Of a DNA stretch of 55,655 nt, positions 17,991 through 26,239 are shown in pieces. Each line of letters starts with the position of its first letter. Positions within the stretch are counted from its first letter, which is position 1. A program made the position numbers and the translations under genes. The notes beneath the pieces are model-generated. The model had not been told where the DNA came from and ran no database searches. It saw only the letters and a list, made by a program, of their open reading frames with translations. Source of the DNA: Gammaproteobacteria bacterium (lineage in GTDB: Bacteria; Pseudomonadota; Gammaproteobacteria; SZUA-152); NCBI GenBank assembly GCA_021647705.1, contig JAKIUF010000029.1, positions 1 to 55,655 of the forward strand, given 5' to 3'.

Positions 17991-19994
17991 TCATCCCGCA
18001 GGTAAGTCTTCTGGCATTTCATCTCCCATATCACCGTTTCTAATCTCTTTTTTTGGCCCCCTGTTACTATCCGGAGAAGAGAATACTGGATCACCCACCT
18101 TCCACGGCTGTTGAACTTTTTTGGTTCGATTGATCACCACTTTACCCTTCACACACTCAACAACACGTTGCTGGCCAGATTGATTAATAACCGCGTTTTT
18201 AGGGAAGCTATTTTGTTTGCAACGATCACCAATTTTGCCTCTTAAGAGGGTTGCTTTTGTGCTATGACGACTGCCTGTTTGATTGGACCGAACGGATGCA
18301 ATCGTCGCATTTTCCAGAGGAACAGTGTGCGACAGGTTGCGAGATTGTTGATTGGTAACTTCATTGAAGTCACTGTCACTCTGCATTCTACCTTGCTGTT
18401 GCCTGACGTGGCTTGATTCATGTCTCAGTAACTGCAATGGTTTTTTATCGGGCACCCGTTCTCCATCAGGCCGAAGACCGGTATTAATAACGGGTGTACG
18501 ATTGTCATTTTCGCGACTGAATGGTGAATTTCCTTTTAACGACGTAGGCGCACCACCACCGCCAGTGTGATCTGGGAGCGCACCTAACGTGCTGCTGCCG
18601 AGCAGGCCCGGACTAACACTCGGATATCCACAGCTAATGACATAAGGCTGTTTTGGTATGGATTTAATCACCACGGAGTCAGAATTGGTAACGCGCAGGC
18701 CATAATTCAAGGTTTGTGTTTTCAACACATTCGACGGTGTGCCACCATTCAGCGACAAGGTATTACTCGCTGATGACCAGTTGAGTTCAATCCTCTTTTG
18801 TTGCGTAGCACTTTGATCAGCAGATAAATTAATCGGCATAACGTAGAGATCAGATAGCGCAGAACCGATTATCAACATGTTCCCATTGACGGGATATCCT
18901 GCGTTGATATGTCCTGTAAGGATTGCATGAGTTGGGCATAACTGCCCGCCAACGGCTATGGTTTCCGTTTTATCTGCGCTAACCGACAGATCCAAATTAA
19001 GAGTTTGCACTTGTTGTAACGGCAAAGCGTCAACACAGTCTATCGAAAAAGATTCGGCTTCACTCGTATAAATTTCGCCATCGATATCGACTTCTAAAAA
19101 AACATTACCGCCATCAATAGTAGCGGGCAGCCGGTCAGTGTAATCGAATACGAACATACCACCGTTTATCGGATTGGCCGTTCTTTCCCACCATCTACTA
19201 TAAGCTATATTAGAACCTGCCTGCCCCCCCTGGTATTTAAAACGATACCGGAGCTGTGCCTGACTGTTATTGGAACGAAGTCTATAAAGCTCATAGCTTG
19301 TACGAAACTCGCCAGTAATACCGAGCTTGCAAGTACCATCCCGACCCGTAATGGGCAATAGCGATAGCTGCGATTCGGTTACCCGTAATTTAGACTGATA
19401 ACCTGTAGCCTCGCACAACGCTTTTATTGGTAAATCAGTTGTATCATAAATGATGTCGTTAAACCCCGCGCCCCCGGTGCAATGGTAATACAGCTCCACA
19501 CGCTGACCCGAAAAAAATTGACCCGCAATAAAGTTTGAATTAAATACCTGGTCATGGCTTTGATCTTGTAAACGCGCTACAGCCTCAAGATTACACGCAT
19601 CAATCAACCGAGCATAATCTTCCCCAAAGCTGGCACGAATAGTGTGGGTCTCCCATTTGTTGCCATTATTTCCGGTTAAGCTGCGATTATTGCCTGAAAC
19701 GGGTATGTCCAGTACCGTCTGACCATTTATAGAGAGTCGAAATGCCCCTAATTTAGCGATTGTAGAAGGACAGCGTCCCCTGACCTCAACTTCATAGTCA
19801 AAGATTTCTGAGCGACTTCTATTGTATTTTATTTTAGATGGATCATCAGAATACACTTGCCCCACTGGAATAAACGAATTTGGCTTGACCTTAACTTGAA
19901 AGGACTCAACGCTGAGGTCTTGCTGAGAGTCTTCCGCTAACGCGAGGTTGGAGATCATCGCCAGCACCACAAGAACTAACAGATTAATTTTCAT
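17991..19994 (-). CDS. Secreted HExxH-containing protein, paralogue A
   Basis: 667 residues from ATG 19994, chosen because the signal peptide (MKINLLVLVVLAMISNLALA) begins there. Two long extracytoplasmic beta-rich regions follow (about 25-480), including RSLTGNNGNKWETHT. A low-complexity Gly/Pro link (PDHTGGGGAPT) comes next, then LLRHESSHVRQQQ with H525, E526 and H529 forming an HExxH motif. A conserved tail (GDRCKQNSFPKNAV, QQRVVECVKGKVVI) closes the protein. The HExxH..QQ piece resembles the HELTHVVQQ motif of DUF4157 (eCIS-core) proteins, but no third zinc ligand is evident. It is the last gene of the sigma-factor operon and a tandem paralogue of the next gene. Confidence 0.7.
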   Translation of the reverse strand: MKINLLVLVVLAMISNLALAEDSQQDLSVESFQVKVKPNSFIPVGQVYSDDPSKIKYNRSRSEIFDYEVEVRGRCPSTIAKLGAFRLSINGQTVLDIPVSGNNRSLTGNNGNKWETHTIRASFGEDYARLIDACNLEAVARLQDQSHDQVFNSNFIAGQFFSGQRVELYYHCTGGAGFNDIIYDTTDLPIKALCEATGYQSKLRVTESQLSLLPITGRDGTCKLGITGEFRTSYELYRLRSNNSQAQLRYRFKYQGGQAGSNIAYSRWWERTANPINGGMFVFDYTDRLPATIDGGNVFLEVDIDGEIYTSEAESFSIDCVDALPLQQVQTLNLDLSVSADKTETIAVGGQLCPTHAILTGHINAGYPVNGNMLIIGSALSDLYVMPINLSADQSATQQKRIELNWSSASNTLSLNGGTPSNVLKTQTLNYGLRVTNSDSVVIKSIPKQPYVISCGYPSVSPGLLGSSTLGALPDHTGGGGAPTSLKGNSPFSRENDNRTPVINTGLRPDGERVPDKKPLQLLRHESSHVRQQQGRMQSDSDFNEVTNQQSRNLSHTVPLENATIASVRSNQTGSRHSTKATLLRGKIGDRCKQNSFPKNAVINQSGQQRVVECVKGKVVINRTKKVQQPWKVGDPVFSSPDSNRGPKKEIRNGDMGDEMPEDLPAG

Positions 19995-20069
19995 AAATGT
20001 AAACCTTCCTCGATATCGAGCATTCCTTATTAACCAGAACAGAGCCACAATTTTCCCAACTTACACTTT

Positions 20070-22079
20070 TCATGGCTTTTTAGTTTGCTTGATTACCACT
20101 TTACCTTTCACACATTCAACAACACGTTGTTGGCCAGATTGCTTGATAACCGCGTTTTTAGGGAAGCCACTTTGTTTGCAGTGGTCACCCACGTTACCTC
20201 TAAAAAGTATTGTTTTTGTGTTATGGCTACCGATTTGACTGGATAGAATCGGCGCAATTGTGGCATTTTCCAGTGGAATGGTGCGTGCCTGGTGTCCCGT
20301 TTGTTGATTGGCAAACCGATCATTTTCAATCCTGGCACTCTCTGCCCCCCCGCTGGTTTGAAAACTTTTTACATCAGCCCCTTTTAAATCCCGCTTTTTG
20401 GTTTCATTTTCATTCGTTTCTTTACTGATCATTGTTGGATAAGGCGTTGGCACCGGTCCAACCGGTGCACTTTTGTGCTGGCTTTGCTGCGCGGTGTGGC
20501 TTAATTCATGTTTAAGTAATTGCAATGGCTTTCTCGCCTGCACCAGCTCCCCATCAGATCGAAGACCGGTATTAACGGGTTTACGATTGTCGCTCTCGCG
20601 ACTGAAGGGTGATCTTCCTGTTAACGCCGTAGGCGCACCACCACCACCGGTGTGGTCAGGGACCATACCCAAAGCGCTACTACCTGGCAGGCTGGGGTTT
20701 ACTTGCGGCCAACTGCAAAGGAAGGTATATGATTTCTGCCCAGTGGTGGCTATCATTTCGTTATTAGCATCCATCAAAGTCATTCCTTGAGTAATCATAA
20801 TACGCTGCAAAACAGGTTCAGAATCATTGATGACTTGCAGGTTAGCCAAGGTACTGGGGAATTCTACCTCTCTAACCCGAAAGAACTTTTTCTTCTCACC
20901 GATATTTAAATCATAGGGCATGGCTTCTGACTGATAAACACTTGAGCCACTCCCAATAAATGTCGCGTGCCCTTCAATAGACGAGCCTGCGGTGACACGA
21001 CCCTCTATCAGCACATTTTTGGGACATATTTGCCCTTTTATAAGCTGTGTTTCCTTAACAACCACATTGAGTGAAAGCTGAGGAGGGATTTCCGTTTGAA
21101 ATGAATTCGTTGCCGGGTCTTCACACCGCATCGTGTAGGTTTTCCAATCCGATTGAAAATCATGACTTACCCCTGTCAAGCGTATACTGCCCGCTTCATC
21201 ATCATAAGGATTATTGTCAATAGTATAGGTGTGGGAAAACATTGCTGTTCTTGAATGATCGGTGGTTACTGACTTTATATCACTCTTCCTGCCATTCGTA
21301 TGTTCATATTGAAATTGAACGTCAGTATTGGCTAGATTTGTTGTAATAACCCCTGAAAGGATTATTTTACATGCACCTGAAAATCGACTGACCTGCTCAC
21401 TAATAGTGAGATGAGACCCCTCAACCCCCACAACAATGCTGACAGCATTACTTGCTGTTGGTAAAGGCTTTACATAGCCGGTAGGTTCACAAAGCACCCG
21501 TACAGGTAAAGCCACAACGGCTTCTTCGGTGAGGTAATTCGAATTGTTACTCACATTAATGCTTAAACCCGCCCTAAATAATGAAGACGCTTGATCAATG
21601 ACAATAGATCGATGTTTATTGAGCGCCTGGGTCATCGTCAACCCCCCAGATAAATCTTCTTCAACCGCATTGTTGCAAACATCAATATAGGGCTGCATGT
21701 TACCAAAATCACTCAACGCGATGGTATGTTCTGCCCATTGATGACCATTATTACCCGTTAAACTGCGTTTATCGCCGGATACTCCAATAGTATAGTTTTG
21801 TTGAAAGCCACCTGTTGCACCGTATCGAATTCGTGCCTGCTCAATGCGATAGCCACTCAATGATTCATTCAAGGTAAGTTGACCCCGAACCTCCACCATC
21901 CACTGGTTAATATTGACTTCGGCAACACTATACGTTTCCAAATTCCCGCTAGCGACAACATGAATGCTTGCCATCTCACTATTCGGTTTTACTTTTATTT
22001 GAAAGGGCTGATAACTGGCTTTGACTGAAAATGAAAATAACAGTCCAATTGAACCCAGTACAACAAAAAATATTTTCAT
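20070..22079 (-). CDS. Secreted HExxH-containing protein, paralogue B
   Basis: 669 residues from ATG 22079, which has AAGGA eight bases upstream and starts the signal peptide (MKIFFVVLGSIGLLFSFSVKA). Architecture equals that of paralogue A: VKPNS and RSLTGNNGHQWAEHT near the N-terminus, PDHTGGGGAPT, then LLKHELSHTAQQ with H524, E525 and H528. The tail GDHCKQSGFPKNAV...QQRVVECVKGKVVI is almost the same as in A, while the middle has diverged widely. This suggests duplication with conservation or gene conversion at the tail. It lies 23 bases after the subtilase gene and 75 bases before paralogue A. Zinc-protease activity is possible, not shown. Confidence 0.7.
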   Translation of the reverse strand: MKIFFVVLGSIGLLFSFSVKASYQPFQIKVKPNSEMASIHVVASGNLETYSVAEVNINQWMVEVRGQLTLNESLSGYRIEQARIRYGATGGFQQNYTIGVSGDKRSLTGNNGHQWAEHTIALSDFGNMQPYIDVCNNAVEEDLSGGLTMTQALNKHRSIVIDQASSLFRAGLSINVSNNSNYLTEEAVVALPVRVLCEPTGYVKPLPTASNAVSIVVGVEGSHLTISEQVSRFSGACKIILSGVITTNLANTDVQFQYEHTNGRKSDIKSVTTDHSRTAMFSHTYTIDNNPYDDEAGSIRLTGVSHDFQSDWKTYTMRCEDPATNSFQTEIPPQLSLNVVVKETQLIKGQICPKNVLIEGRVTAGSSIEGHATFIGSGSSVYQSEAMPYDLNIGEKKKFFRVREVEFPSTLANLQVINDSEPVLQRIMITQGMTLMDANNEMIATTGQKSYTFLCSWPQVNPSLPGSSALGMVPDHTGGGGAPTALTGRSPFSRESDNRKPVNTGLRSDGELVQARKPLQLLKHELSHTAQQSQHKSAPVGPVPTPYPTMISKETNENETKKRDLKGADVKSFQTSGGAESARIENDRFANQQTGHQARTIPLENATIAPILSSQIGSHNTKTILFRGNVGDHCKQSGFPKNAVIKQSGQQRVVECVKGKVVIKQTKKP

Positions 22080-22102
22080 GCTATTAATCCTTACTTCATT
22101 TG

Positions 22103-23806
22103 TTATCGGCACAGATCGTGAACTAATATCAGACCCCAGCCAAAGTGCTTATCTTTGCCTGATTCACCTAGATCACGAACGGTATTTTTCAATGAGTCGT
22201 TCGTACTTACATTATTGTTCAATAAAGCGTAACTGGCCGAAACGATGGGCGCAGCAAAAGAACTACCTGACAGATACCGTCCATCGCCTTTTTCGTTAAG
22301 CAACCATAGATCAACGCCTGGGGCAGAAAAGTCGATATAGTCGCCTTGTATTTTTTTAGAGAACGGTTTACCACCAGCATCGATGGCTCTCACCGCAATC
22401 ACACCTTCCTGTGCCGCTGGATAAAGCGGCTCATCTTGTTCATCAATTCCAGCAGCAGAAACAACAACAATCCCTTTTTCAAGTACACGACTAATAGCGA
22501 TTTCAACAGCCAGATTGCGAGGGCCGCCAAAGCTTAAATTAATGACTGTCACCTGCTCTTCAGCCATCCAGTTCAGAGCCGCAACAATTAATTCAGCGGT
22601 TGTGTCCACCTGATCTTCAGCCCGTTCTCTAAAAACACTCGCTGAATACACCGTTGCATTGGGCAATAACCCTGGAATATTTCGTTGGGCGCTACCTAAA
22701 AGCAAGCTGGCAACCGCGGTGCCATGATTCATTTTTGCGGGTTTGACACCCTGACTCAGCAGCGACTTATGTTTAATATTTTTCTGCTCAATCAGCGCTA
22801 TTTGAGCAATTCCGGTATCAATAATGCCTAGCTTACGTTTGGGCTGACAATCGCGATGCACCTCTGTCCATCCCAACATATCGTACACCCAGTTTTTAGA
22901 ATCCAGTGTTAATCGCGGGTCAGCATCCAACAGTTTATAGCGATGATTAAAATCAACCCACAACTCAGGGGCGCTCTCACGTAATTGCTGCACGACATCT
23001 GCCGTTGTATATTCCCCTGGAATGTGTAAAACAGTAACGACTAATTGAAGGCTGCGATAATTACTGCGGCGTTTAACACGAATATTGTACTGTTGTACAA
23101 ATTGCGCCAATGCTGTCGCTTCATCAAGCGTTGCTGTCACAACAACTACTTCATTGGGTTCCATCGCTTTGGATTTTGCTACATTTTTATTAGTCTCTAG
23201 ATCCACGCTGGGCGGTGCGCCTAAACCATTCAAACTCATTGTTTGCACGGGTGCCGGGCGATGCTGAAATGGCCCAAGCCTGCTAACCACGGGAACGTCA
23301 GGCTTACTCTCTTCCTGCTGTGTACTATTTGGATTGGCTGTTAATGTTTTTCTGTGCGGTGTTGGCGGTGTTGGTGGGGTTGGTGGGGGTGTTTTAAAAA
23401 CAGGGGTTATTTGCTTAACGGTATCACACAGTACAATACGTTTATCACGATTACTAACCCAACGGGCACCCTCTACAATACCGAGAATGTAAGAGTGACT
23501 TTTACCCAACGTTAATGCTGTTGGTAATTGGGCAGAAATTTCACTGTCACTCCATTGTTTAATTTGGGTAATAACGTGCCGTTTTGCACCCACTTGTAGC
23601 ACCAATTTTTTTGTAGGTGAAGTTTTACCAAAGCCTTTACCCATCACGCCAATATACTCGCCAATATCATAACAGCTGGTTTTATTAAGCTTTTTTATAA
23701 CAACCTCATTTTTTGCATTTGCGTTAATGCTTAGCAGCTGTAATACGGCAAATACAGCAAACATTTTGATGCAATAGACGAGGTTATTCTTGCGTAGCTT
23801 CAGCAT
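22103..23806 (-). CDS. Exported subtilisin-like (S8) serine protease
   Basis: 567 residues. Signal peptide (about 1-31); an IPT/TIG-like domain (about 34-128); a proline-rich linker (TPPPTPPTPPTP); a pro-region of beta-alpha-beta-beta-alpha-beta type (about 219-292); then the S8 domain (about 322-560). The triad is D330 (GIIDTG), H361 (NHGTAV) and S516 (SGSSFAAP). The oxyanion-hole Asn, normally in AAGN, is replaced by Ile at 454 (SAAGIDEQ), so activity may be reduced. The start overlaps the anti-sigma gene by 23 bases, implying tight coupling. It probably processes itself and perhaps surface proteins of the island. Confidence 0.85.
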   Translation of the reverse strand: MLKLRKNNLVYCIKMFAVFAVLQLLSINANAKNEVVIKKLNKTSCYDIGEYIGVMGKGFGKTSPTKKLVLQVGAKRHVITQIKQWSDSEISAQLPTALTLGKSHSYILGIVEGARWVSNRDKRIVLCDTVKQITPVFKTPPPTPPTPPTPHRKTLTANPNSTQQEESKPDVPVVSRLGPFQHRPAPVQTMSLNGLGAPPSVDLETNKNVAKSKAMEPNEVVVVTATLDEATALAQFVQQYNIRVKRRSNYRSLQLVVTVLHIPGEYTTADVVQQLRESAPELWVDFNHRYKLLDADPRLTLDSKNWVYDMLGWTEVHRDCQPKRKLGIIDTGIAQIALIEQKNIKHKSLLSQGVKPAKMNHGTAVASLLLGSAQRNIPGLLPNATVYSASVFRERAEDQVDTTAELIVAALNWMAEEQVTVINLSFGGPRNLAVEIAISRVLEKGIVVVSAAGIDEQDEPLYPAAQEGVIAVRAIDAGGKPFSKKIQGDYIDFSAPGVDLWLLNEKGDGRYLSGSSFAAPIVSASYALLNNNVSTNDSLKNTVRDLGESGKDKHFGWGLILVHDLCR

Positions 23807-24374
23807 ATTGGACTAACCCGCTCACTTTTAAGCTCGCAATGGCCGATTGTCTGTCTTCAAAATAAATATGATAAATACCCATTGCACTTGGACCTTTTAC
23901 AATATTCCCTTGTAAATTTATGAGCATGGTACGCACATCACTTTCGCTAACCTCTGCCATAAATTGCACCTTCACAGTATTCTCCAACTCGACTGTTGAC
24001 AGCAGGCGGTAGTCTTCTGGTGGTATAAAACCTTGTTGAATCAGATAACCGGATTGCACCACAAACGCAAACGAGGCAGCAATGGCAGCACTCTTCCACC
24101 AACTTTGTTTATTATGTTCAGTTTTCGCCAAGCCGATGCGGCCGGACTTACTTTCCTCAGCCAGGATATCACGCTTTAACCTCATCAAACCCCAATCACC
24201 AGGTGATCTAACATTTTCGTTTTTAATGCTATCGTTAATTGATTGCAAAAAAATTAACTCTTGCTGTAAAGATTGACTTTCACTCACCGCTTGACGAACG
24301 CGCTCCTTTTGCTCTGTCTTTAGCTTATCGTTCAGATAAAACGGTAACAGTTCGATAATTTCTTCATATTCCAT
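23784..24374 (-). CDS. Single-pass anti-sigma factor with pro-domain-like periplasmic end
   Basis: 196 residues from ATG 24374 (a TTG two codons earlier is less likely). Residues 1-65 are helical and acidic/basic (EIIELLPFYLNDKLKTEQKE), typical of the cytoplasmic part of membrane anti-sigma factors; no HxxxCxxC zinc motif is present. One membrane helix spans about 93-113 (AAIAASFAFVVQSGYLIQQG). The periplasmic part (about 126-193) has the order strand-helix-strand-strand-helix-strand and includes NIVKGPSAMGIYHIYF. It lies 40 bases after the sigma gene and overlaps the protease gene. It should hold the sigma factor inactive until a signal arrives. Confidence 0.75.
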   Translation of the reverse strand: MEYEEIIELLPFYLNDKLKTEQKERVRQAVSESQSLQQELIFLQSINDSIKNENVRSPGDWGLMRLKRDILAEESKSGRIGLAKTEHNKQSWWKSAAIAASFAFVVQSGYLIQQGFIPPEDYRLLSTVELENTVKVQFMAEVSESDVRTMLINLQGNIVKGPSAMGIYHIYFEDRQSAIASLKVSGLVQYAEATQE

Positions 24375-25033: not shown

Positions 25034-26239
25034 TTATTCTTGCGGTGTGAAATAGATTTTTTGATAATTACTTTTACCGAGCAGATTACCATCACTATCA
25101 ACCGCCAACGTTCGCCAATAGTAGACATTACCTGATGTCAAATATTGCAATGTCATTGGCGTTAGTGCGGTGGTCTGGCGATCACTGGGTAAAAGTATGC
25201 CTGTGGTTAAGACTTTGTCCTGGCTCTCTTCAATGTCTGTCGAGAGCAAACCTGCATAGGGTAAGTCCGCAACAGGCATTTCATAAATTTCAAGCTGGTA
25301 ACTTATTGCGCCTGATACGGATTTCCAGCTAAATTGTGTCGTTTTGTCAATTGTGCTGTTAGGAAGAGGGTTAACGAGGCGGATGGTTTTCACCTCTGTG
25401 GCAGGCGCGCTACTGCGAATCACCGAATAATGCAAAACCAGCCCACTGAAATCGACTGTGGGGGCATTAGCCCGTAGCCGAAGAATATAACTGCCCGTGA
25501 GATTTGTGGGTAAACGGGGGCTTTCAATCACACTGCGACGCCCCGCCCCTAAAAACTGTCTGGTCGTTTTCAATCGAATAAAAATGGGTGTGCCAGAGGT
25601 GCTGGAAGGTGTTGCTACCTCCCAAATCAAATCCAGTAAGCCACTTCCTCCATAACTGATCACAGCTGTTGCATTCACGGTTTGGTCAGTACCTGTCACC
25701 ATCGTGATATCGCCATTTTGAAAGCGTAAATCTATTTGTGAAATGGATAAATTACCACCACTGCTAGGTGTAATTTGCAGAGTGACTACACTTGTGCCAA
25801 CAGGCCCTCCACTTTCATCAGTAAAGGTGCGAACGTAACGAATGATCTTAGTATCGGCGCGCGCTGCAGCAGCCAGTACACTTCGTGGGACTCGTACCGT
25901 CTCAAAAATATTGAATGGGTTAACTGTTCCTACCACAAGTCTTGCACTGACACGTCGGTTACTATTTGCCACGGTAGTTTGATTTACGACAAAAGAGCCG
26001 TTATTGGAAAAAACTTGGTAGGGTTGACCGAAGCTATTTGATGCGGAACTGTCCGAGTTACCACTCCAAGTTATACGAAGCGTATTAACTTGTTGAGCTT
26101 TTATCAAGCCTGAACCCTGAACTGAATTGCTAATAGGCACTGGAAAAGAGGCAAATACCCCTTGTGAACTTAACCCCAACATGAGTACGAGTGAAAGTTT
26201 ACTCAAATAAAATAGCATAAATTTCTTTAGTGTTTTCAT
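25034..26239 (-). CDS. Secreted beta-rich protein with fibronectin-like C-terminal part
   Basis: 401 residues with a signal peptide (about 1-30, QGVFA) and a good AAGGAG ribosome binding site. The first 280 residues form beta-sandwich-like stretches without a recognised family (LRITWSGNSD, IDLRFQNGDITMV). The C-terminal 110 residues (PLPNSTIDKTTQFSWKSVSG, YYWRTLAVDSDG) match the fibronectin-III-like pattern found in many adhesive or extracellular proteins. It lies 12 bases after the beta-barrel gene, so both are on one transcript, and directly before the sigma factor. It may be a partner of that barrel at the cell surface. Confidence 0.65.
   Translation of the reverse strand: MKTLKKFMLFYLSKLSLVLMLGLSSQGVFASFPVPISNSVQGSGLIKAQQVNTLRITWSGNSDSSASNSFGQPYQVFSNNGSFVVNQTTVANSNRRVSARLVVGTVNPFNIFETVRVPRSVLAAAARADTKIIRYVRTFTDESGGPVGTSVVTLQITPSSGGNLSISQIDLRFQNGDITMVTGTDQTVNATAVISYGGSGLLDLIWEVATPSSTSGTPIFIRLKTTRQFLGAGRRSVIESPRLPTNLTGSYILRLRANAPTVDFSGLVLHYSVIRSSAPATEVKTIRLVNPLPNSTIDKTTQFSWKSVSGAISYQLEIYEMPVADLPYAGLLSTDIEESQDKVLTTGILLPSDRQTTALTPMTLQYLTSGNVYYWRTLAVDSDGNLLGKSNYQKIYFTPQE

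Follow-up and report, generated by a model that had tools for sequence, protein, structure and literature searches.

Membrane-bound anti-sigma factors are controlled by regulated intramembrane proteolysis in systems such as RseA/DegS/RseP, RsiW/PrsW and RsiV/signal peptidase; to our knowledge, none of these uses a subtilase as its site-1 protease or carries a propeptide-like domain on the anti-sigma factor. Likewise, POIA1, a propeptide-like partner of subtilisin, is an inhibitor with no membrane receptor part. Here, we describe a locus that may combine these features. Within a 55,655-nucleotide stretch of contig JAKIUF010000029.1 from a gammaproteobacterial assembly (GCA_021647705.1; the whole stretch is hereafter called the window), the gene for an extracytoplasmic function (ECF) sigma factor is followed by overlapping genes for a membrane anti-sigma factor and a subtilase of peptidase family S8. 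Profile comparisons relate the C-terminal domain of this anti-sigma factor, together with the region preceding the protease domain of the subtilase, to subtilase propeptides, and the gene pair recurs across many bacterial families.

Links between subtilases and sigma factors have been described before. PMC6180224 places rpoE6 of Sinorhizobium meliloti divergent from the serine protease gene SMa0142, describes this arrangement as widely conserved in ECF26, and lists SMa0142 as raised on RpoE6 overexpression (4.7 in the table). The divergent ECF26 sigma/subtilase arrangement, without the domain discussed here, is therefore already known. For ECF54, PMC8999054 describes subtilase and CHAT genes in a conserved neighbourhood with no anti-sigma factor, and proposes proteolytic control. 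Propeptide-like proteins encoded apart from a protease are represented by SUB1-ProM of Plasmodium, a stand-alone subtilase inhibitor encoded next to subtilase genes (PMC6993865), and by POIA1, found in complex with subtilisin according to the title of entry 1v5i. In the S1P/SPRING system, as outlined in PMC11231238, a subtilase is itself the site-1 protease, licensed by a partner that displaces its inhibitory pro-domain. Our literature search, whose coverage left out most subscription journals, found no anti-sigma factor with a subtilase propeptide domain.

Propeptide-like modules in both proteins

The initial annotation of this locus had proposed that the anti-sigma factor and the subtilase share a propeptide-like module and that their genes overlap by 23 bases. 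The overlap is as described, with the anti-sigma open reading frame (ORF) ending at 23784 and that of the subtilase starting at 23806, both on the minus strand, and the shared module is borne out by profile evidence. To obtain a reference, 15 independent propeptides were drawn from 29 loci of relatives recognised with the PF22148 (Fervidolysin_NPro-like) profile, chosen by their last-strand motif and freed of near-duplicates; a hidden Markov model (HMM) recognises an S8 gene at 14 of the 15, L028 being the exception. Against this reference, a set of 28 C-terminal domains of related anti-sigma factors aligned in hhalign with a probability of 96.8 and a score of 53.9 over 79 columns, as compared with scores of at most 13.4 for 300 column shuffles, 9.7 for the reversed profile, and 16.4 and 16.0 for HMA and SPOR, two control families that share the strand-helix order. 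Enlarging the set to 57 domains gave 97.2 / 56.3 (probability / score, here and below), with HMA at 17.2 and SPOR at 19.0; when each propeptide was left out in turn the score never fell below 53.0, and without L028 it was 97.1 / 56.2. The pro-regions of the paired subtilases behaved similarly, eight of them matching the reference with a probability of 90.0 and 45 of them at 96.9 / 58.7. On these profile comparisons, the anti-sigma domain is a homologue of the Fervidolysin_NPro type of subtilase propeptide, and the pro-region of the window's subtilase falls within that superfamily too.

Database searches with single sequences gave fainter signals in the same direction. PF22148 matched residues 131-192 of the whole anti-sigma factor with E 0.034 and was outranked there by FliW (E 0.016, residues 83-159); when the domain was scanned alone PF22148 ranked first (E 0.0038, 18.0 bits), under the Pfam cut-off of 21 bits. 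Ten C-terminal domains scanned singly reached at most 20.2 bits, so that none attained that cut-off. Of the 28 related C-terminal domains, eight matched PF22148, the best of them with E 1.7e-5; 15 families were matched in all, each of the others by two domains at most. The I9-type label of the initial annotation thus needs adjusting: the assignment to the subtilase propeptide superfamily stands, whereas Inhibitor_I9 (PF05922) matched neither window protein at E <= 10, was not among the 15 families, and gives way to Fervidolysin_NPro-like as the Pfam match. A sequence search of the PDB with the 28 domains returned nothing significant; the weak, partial match to the extracellular serine proteinase 8c4z (E 0.47) was not used.

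Structure prediction, which the initial annotation had named as a check on the common strand-helix order, was informative for one of the two modules. In the subtilase, AlphaFold gave residues 220-285 the order E-H-(E)-E-H-E (E, strand; H, helix) at low to moderate confidence, with block-mean predicted local distance difference test (pLDDT) values of 38-69, but the ectodomain of the anti-sigma factor reached a pLDDT of only 44.5 from an alignment of two near-identical rows and is unusable as fold evidence. The fold of the anti-sigma domain rests on the profiles. The subtilase model has the subtilisin fold (VIA-align Z 34 to subtilisins), and the rows of its fold search were filled by the catalytic domain and say nothing on the pro-domain.

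The similarity could in principle reflect nothing more than the common ferredoxin-like beta-alpha-beta-beta-alpha-beta order, without common descent. The Pfam scores of single sequences below cut-off and the poor AlphaFold model of the window domain would fit such a reading, as would a direct comparison of anti-sigma domains with partner pro-regions restricted to type I, which was weak (24.1 / 24.1, against control scores of 16.7 and 19.9). Subgroups differ as well. The window's own subgroup of 14 sequences and the short-partner subgroup each matched the reference propeptides (96.0 / 47.5 and 96.7 / 53.5), two groups outside the window's class gave 44.8 / 24.8 and 61.7 / 26.9, four protease-less loci gave 88.8 / 34.9 and two caspase loci 71.5 / 28.8; small subgroups taken alone are not significant. 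Nonetheless, families with the same strand-helix order score only 16-19 and shuffles at most 13.4 where propeptides score 54-56, and among Pfam families PF22148 ranks first for the 28 domains, so that we consider coincidence of fold highly improbable.

The remainder of the anti-sigma factor is less distinctive. By hydropathy, a single membrane segment of weak hydrophobicity spans about residues 95-113. The protein may belong to the class I membrane anti-sigma factors, given its position by an ECF sigma gene and N-terminal matches that lie under their cut-offs (NCBIfam antisigma, E 5.6e-4 on residues 9-128; Pfam zf-HC2, E 0.12). Its relatives adjoin a sigma gene at 27 of 28 loci (the remaining one lies at a contig end), at 20 of 20 and at 27 of 27, and in one of them, L228, the sigma gene is convergent with that of the anti-sigma factor. 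The propeptide-like domain forms the C terminus of a protein with a membrane segment rather than preceding a protease domain; as it is not in cis to the protease, we refer to it as a propeptide homologue and not as a propeptide.

Conservation of the gene pair

The initial annotation had made its proposal depend on the pair being conserved in other genomes, and it is. In the first set of 28 loci, an S8 gene follows the anti-sigma gene in 21, is absent from 5, and 2 loci run into the contig edge. Twenty further anti-sigma factors, whose match missed the C-terminal domain wholly or in part, have an S8 gene alongside in 4 cases; the domain was detected by HMM in 3 of those 4 and in none of the 16 without S8. 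A phylum-wide search added 27 loci with the domain, 26 of which have an S8 gene within 1.5 kb, and the remaining 36 places comprise 3 with domain and S8, 2 with the domain only, 2 with S8 only, 28 with neither and 1 untestable. Overall, an S8 gene adjoins 53 of the 61 testable domain loci, compared with 3 of 47 related anti-sigma factors without a domain match (Fisher p 2e-18), and by family 25 of 27 with the domain compared with 3 of 33 without it (p 2e-11), p values that serve only as guides because the loci are related by descent. The pairing of this kind of anti-sigma factor with an S8 protease is conserved and widespread, and it survives changes of gene order: L225 and L227 carry the S8 gene ahead of the sigma gene, on its other side, and L228 has it in divergent orientation to the anti-sigma gene.

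These counts cover every place of both searches (69 and 45). Since the first 28 loci supplied the domain HMM, the domain call holds by construction at these loci; the S8 call does not. Untestable and left out were L087 and L099, at contig ends, and L299, a fragment at a contig end with no ORF; L215 and L319, where little downstream sequence is present, were counted as lacking both domain and S8. L210 is borderline for the domain (E 9e-4) and stands outside the 57-sequence set, and L198, L290 and L300 are S8-positive without a domain match and were counted as lacking it, their C termini appearing by eye to be a diverged form of the domain. Family tables were collapsed by hand from labels, with any S8-positive locus making a family positive and a family free to stand on both sides.

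Where the subtilase is missing, another protease may take its place. Three of the eight S8-less loci have a caspase gene (Peptidase_C14) directly after the gene of the propeptide-like anti-sigma factor (L095:6611-7978, E 3e-37; L235:665-1471, E 2e-39; L293:3927-5945, E 2e-8), indicating that a protease is often kept in that slot. The broader idea that these anti-sigma factors mimic the propeptide of the adjoining protease, forming a widespread class of transmembrane switches that the protease would read as if they were its pro-domain and in which a caspase could replace the subtilase, falls in our judgement just short of even odds.

The pairing was also read from the protease side, with a search of the window's taxonomic class for subtilases of this kind at E <= 1e-45. 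This gave 34 S8 places, of which one fragment, which we take to be the end of a split gene, was set aside. Among the remaining 33, 20 adjoin an anti-sigma factor of the propeptide-like kind (19 with a domain match; G325 is L198) and 5 stand in divergent orientation to an ECF sigma gene. Two more, arranged in tandem, converge on sigma and anti-sigma genes that show no domain match, and 6 have no sigma match in the stretch read, some being cut by contig ends. At one of the divergent loci, L257/L279, the sigma factor was seen as an ORF and not as an HMM match. Among 42 subtilases in viral contigs, none had an anti-sigma match nearby, and a tblastn search of a plasmid collection with three anti-sigma factors found nothing.

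A possible docking role for the ectodomain

We propose, with a probability that we would put at about 0.4, that a subtilase propeptide was acquired by the anti-sigma factor and now serves as its periplasmic part. The mature partner subtilase would dock on this ectodomain through the surface that its own propeptide covers during folding, and sigma release would thereby depend on whether the subtilase is present or active: the subtilase would cut the ectodomain at site 1, after which an RseP-type membrane protease of the genome would act. Directed cleavage of the ectodomain seems somewhat more likely than pure inhibition. The physical contact, the site-1 cut and the starting signal are our inferences. 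An M50 protease is encoded in the window's own genome (E 7.7e-72), an observation that adds little since all 14 of 14 control genomes have one too.

The length of the domain's tail bears on what docking would achieve. The sheet of a propeptide provides tight binding to the enzyme and its tail blocks the active site, and in subtilisin BPN' about 8 residues separate the last-strand position from the P1 residue. Window-type domains stop 1-4 residues past the conserved last-strand position, that of the window 4 past the Glu; with so short a tail, a domain docked in the manner of a propeptide would not cover the active site, an arrangement that speaks for docking and cutting rather than plugging. 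A second group has tails of 5-18 residues past the same position, long enough that they could plug the active site.

The state of the partner enzymes is mixed. Their catalytic triad is intact, with Asp and His present in 24 of 24 aligned S8 genes and Ser in all 23 that cover its position. By alignment the oxyanion Asn is absent from 12 of the 24. The window and its sister L001 have Ile instead; the shorter partner type has other residues there, and as its loop lengths differ that assignment is less certain. In subtilisin mutants, catalysis without this Asn is two to three orders of magnitude slower, and it may therefore be slow or lost in the window's enzyme and in the others without it. The partners may be slow one-cut proteases or in part binding proteins, and the loss raises the question of whether they cut or only bind.

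Binding without cutting is the core of an alternative in which the ectodomain, tethered to the membrane, would inhibit or chaperone the subtilase and the system would measure the level of the enzyme. Bound enzyme would stabilise the anti-sigma factor and keep the sigma factor off; were the enzyme exported, titrated or missing, the free ectodomain would be open to another site-1 protease. Tails as long as those of the second group could extend into the active site, the missing Asn in half of the aligned partners fits a binding role, and SUB1-ProM and POIA1 are precedents for stand-alone propeptide-like inhibitors. Set against this are the tail of the window's own domain, too short for the usual product-like block by the BPN' geometry, and the retention of the triad, and we regard the inhibitor reading as unlikely, if a serious contender.

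Several observations weigh against docking of the partner subtilase, including the possible loss of catalysis just described. Direct comparison of the anti-sigma domains with the partner pro-regions was weak in the first sets (4.2 / 17.4) and moderate in enlarged ones (74.7 / 31.5, where none of 300 shuffles exceeded 15.6), so the anti-sigma module is, on these profiles, not closest to the propeptide of its own partner, and the link between the two modules runs mainly through the third profile, that of the independent propeptides. The domain is retained beside caspases, and we know of no caspase with such a propeptide; it is also present at L020, L088, L089, L093 and L288, where no protease was seen adjoining. 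At the five divergent loci (L279-L283, from the window's class), in turn, the subtilase is present, and the anti-sigma factors, read over their full length, have no domain match and terminate in another domain, marked by a conserved Cys-Arg ... Cys pattern. On pSymA of S. meliloti (L245:9423-12290), a close relative of the window's subtilase (E 1e-98) lies divergently beside an ECF sigma/anti-sigma pair and the HMM of the propeptide-like domain had no match in the anti-sigma factor at E <= 1. This region is unannotated, and we equate its genes with SMa0142, rpoE6 and ecfR6 by the published arrangement, not by locus tag. The activation of the protease gene by the sigma factor in the ECF26 system, as given in PMC6180224, likewise resembles that of an output gene.

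Some of these findings would be expected if the subtilase gene were no more than a target that the sigma factor switches on, and the propeptide fold an old, borrowed sensor that makes no contact with the subtilase. The increase of SMa0142 on RpoE6 overexpression is in line with this, as are the pSymA relative and the five divergent loci, which place an S8 gene by an anti-sigma factor without a domain match, as are the five domain loci at which no protease was seen. Across families, however, S8 goes with the domain and rarely with related anti-sigma factors that lack it, and a pure output role would leave both this link and the propeptide identity of the domain unexplained. We consider it rather improbable.

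If docking proves correct, its reach would extend beyond this locus. For many ECF anti-sigma factors no trigger is known, and a propeptide homologue linked to a protease gene amounts to a testable guess at one, a guess that would cover a large set of anti-sigma factors, as the protease is tied to them by gene order in 25 families.

Operon context

Features of the locus are collected in Table 1. The IPT/TIG-like region was placed through relatives: TIG was not detected in the window subtilase itself and was found in the relative L015 (E 1.1e-5; region aligned in A2). Two genes upstream of the sigma gene belong to the window-type operon, their order being kept in 9-10 of the 27 other first-set loci. 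The 401-residue exported protein has homologues in the same position at 10 loci (L015, L016, L017, L019, L082-L087) and the 680-residue protein at 9 (L015, L016, L017, L019, L082-L084, L086 and, as a fragment, L087); neither had a match in the Pfam scan, and the latter is probably an outer-membrane barrel, as we infer. A search for a common promoter upstream of the operons gave a signal not above chance.

Table 1. Features of the sigma factor/anti-sigma factor/subtilase locus (positions in the window).
Feature	Position	Strand	Basis or remark
S8 subtilase, 567 aa, signal-peptide-like N terminus (...NANA/K)	22103..23806	minus	Pfam Peptidase_S8 5e-25, residues 325-558
Catalytic domain of subtilase	22127..22834	minus	D330, H361, S516 present; Ile454 at oxyanion-Asn position (alignments)
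Subtilase propeptide, approx. residues 216-292	22931..23161	minus	hhalign of paired pro-regions; predicted E-H-(E)-E-H-E
N-terminal IPT/TIG-like region of subtilase, approx. residues 34-127	23426..23707	minus	via relatives
Anti-sigma factor, 196 aa: N-terminal anti-sigma region, membrane segment, C-terminal propeptide-like domain	23784..24374	minus	
Propeptide-like anti-sigma ectodomain, residues 127-196	23787..23996	minus	PF22148 E 0.0038; hhalign to subtilase propeptides
ECF sigma factor, 182 aa	24415..24963	minus	Pfam Sigma70_r2 2.6e-16, Sigma70_r4_2 1.6e-10
Exported protein, 401 aa, family unknown	25034..26239	minus	upstream of sigma gene, conserved in window-type operon
Putative outer-membrane barrel, 680 aa	26252..28294	minus	head of window-type operon, conserved

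Immediately downstream of the subtilase, the window encodes two paralogous exported proteins of about 680 residues (17991-20048 and 20070-22112), which share the motifs GGGGAP..SPFSRE and, at the C terminus, CKQ.FPKNAVI and match no Pfam family above cut-off. Long proteins encoded near the operon in two relatives (L017:998-2998 and L019:13702-15657) end in GAGAVYLY or GAAGAVYLY, a repeat type that we take to be FG-GAP.

Comparison with known systems

The ECF26 system (rpoE6-ecfR6 / SMa0142) resembles the window in having an ECF sigma factor, a membrane anti-sigma factor and a closely related S8 protease side by side, and differs in that its S8 gene is divergent rather than downstream of the anti-sigma gene and in that EcfR6 shows no match to the propeptide-like domain. 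ECF54 also has a subtilase gene near its sigma gene, but is described in PMC8999054 as acting without an anti-sigma factor. The systems regulated by intramembrane proteolysis share with the window a membrane anti-sigma factor with an exported domain, and an M50 protease is present in the window's genome. In S1P/SPRING, a membrane-signalling cascade has a subtilase as its site-1 protease, the role proposed here; unlike the window, it is an animal system, and its partner protein, SPRING, is neither the substrate nor an anti-sigma factor. If docking occurs, the locus would represent a new use of the propeptide fold, with a partner domain for a subtilase built into a signalling receptor. Parallels are SUB1-ProM and POIA1, in which, as in the window, a propeptide module is encoded apart from the protease; those proteins are inhibitors without a membrane receptor part, whereas the module of the window is fused to a transmembrane anti-sigma factor.

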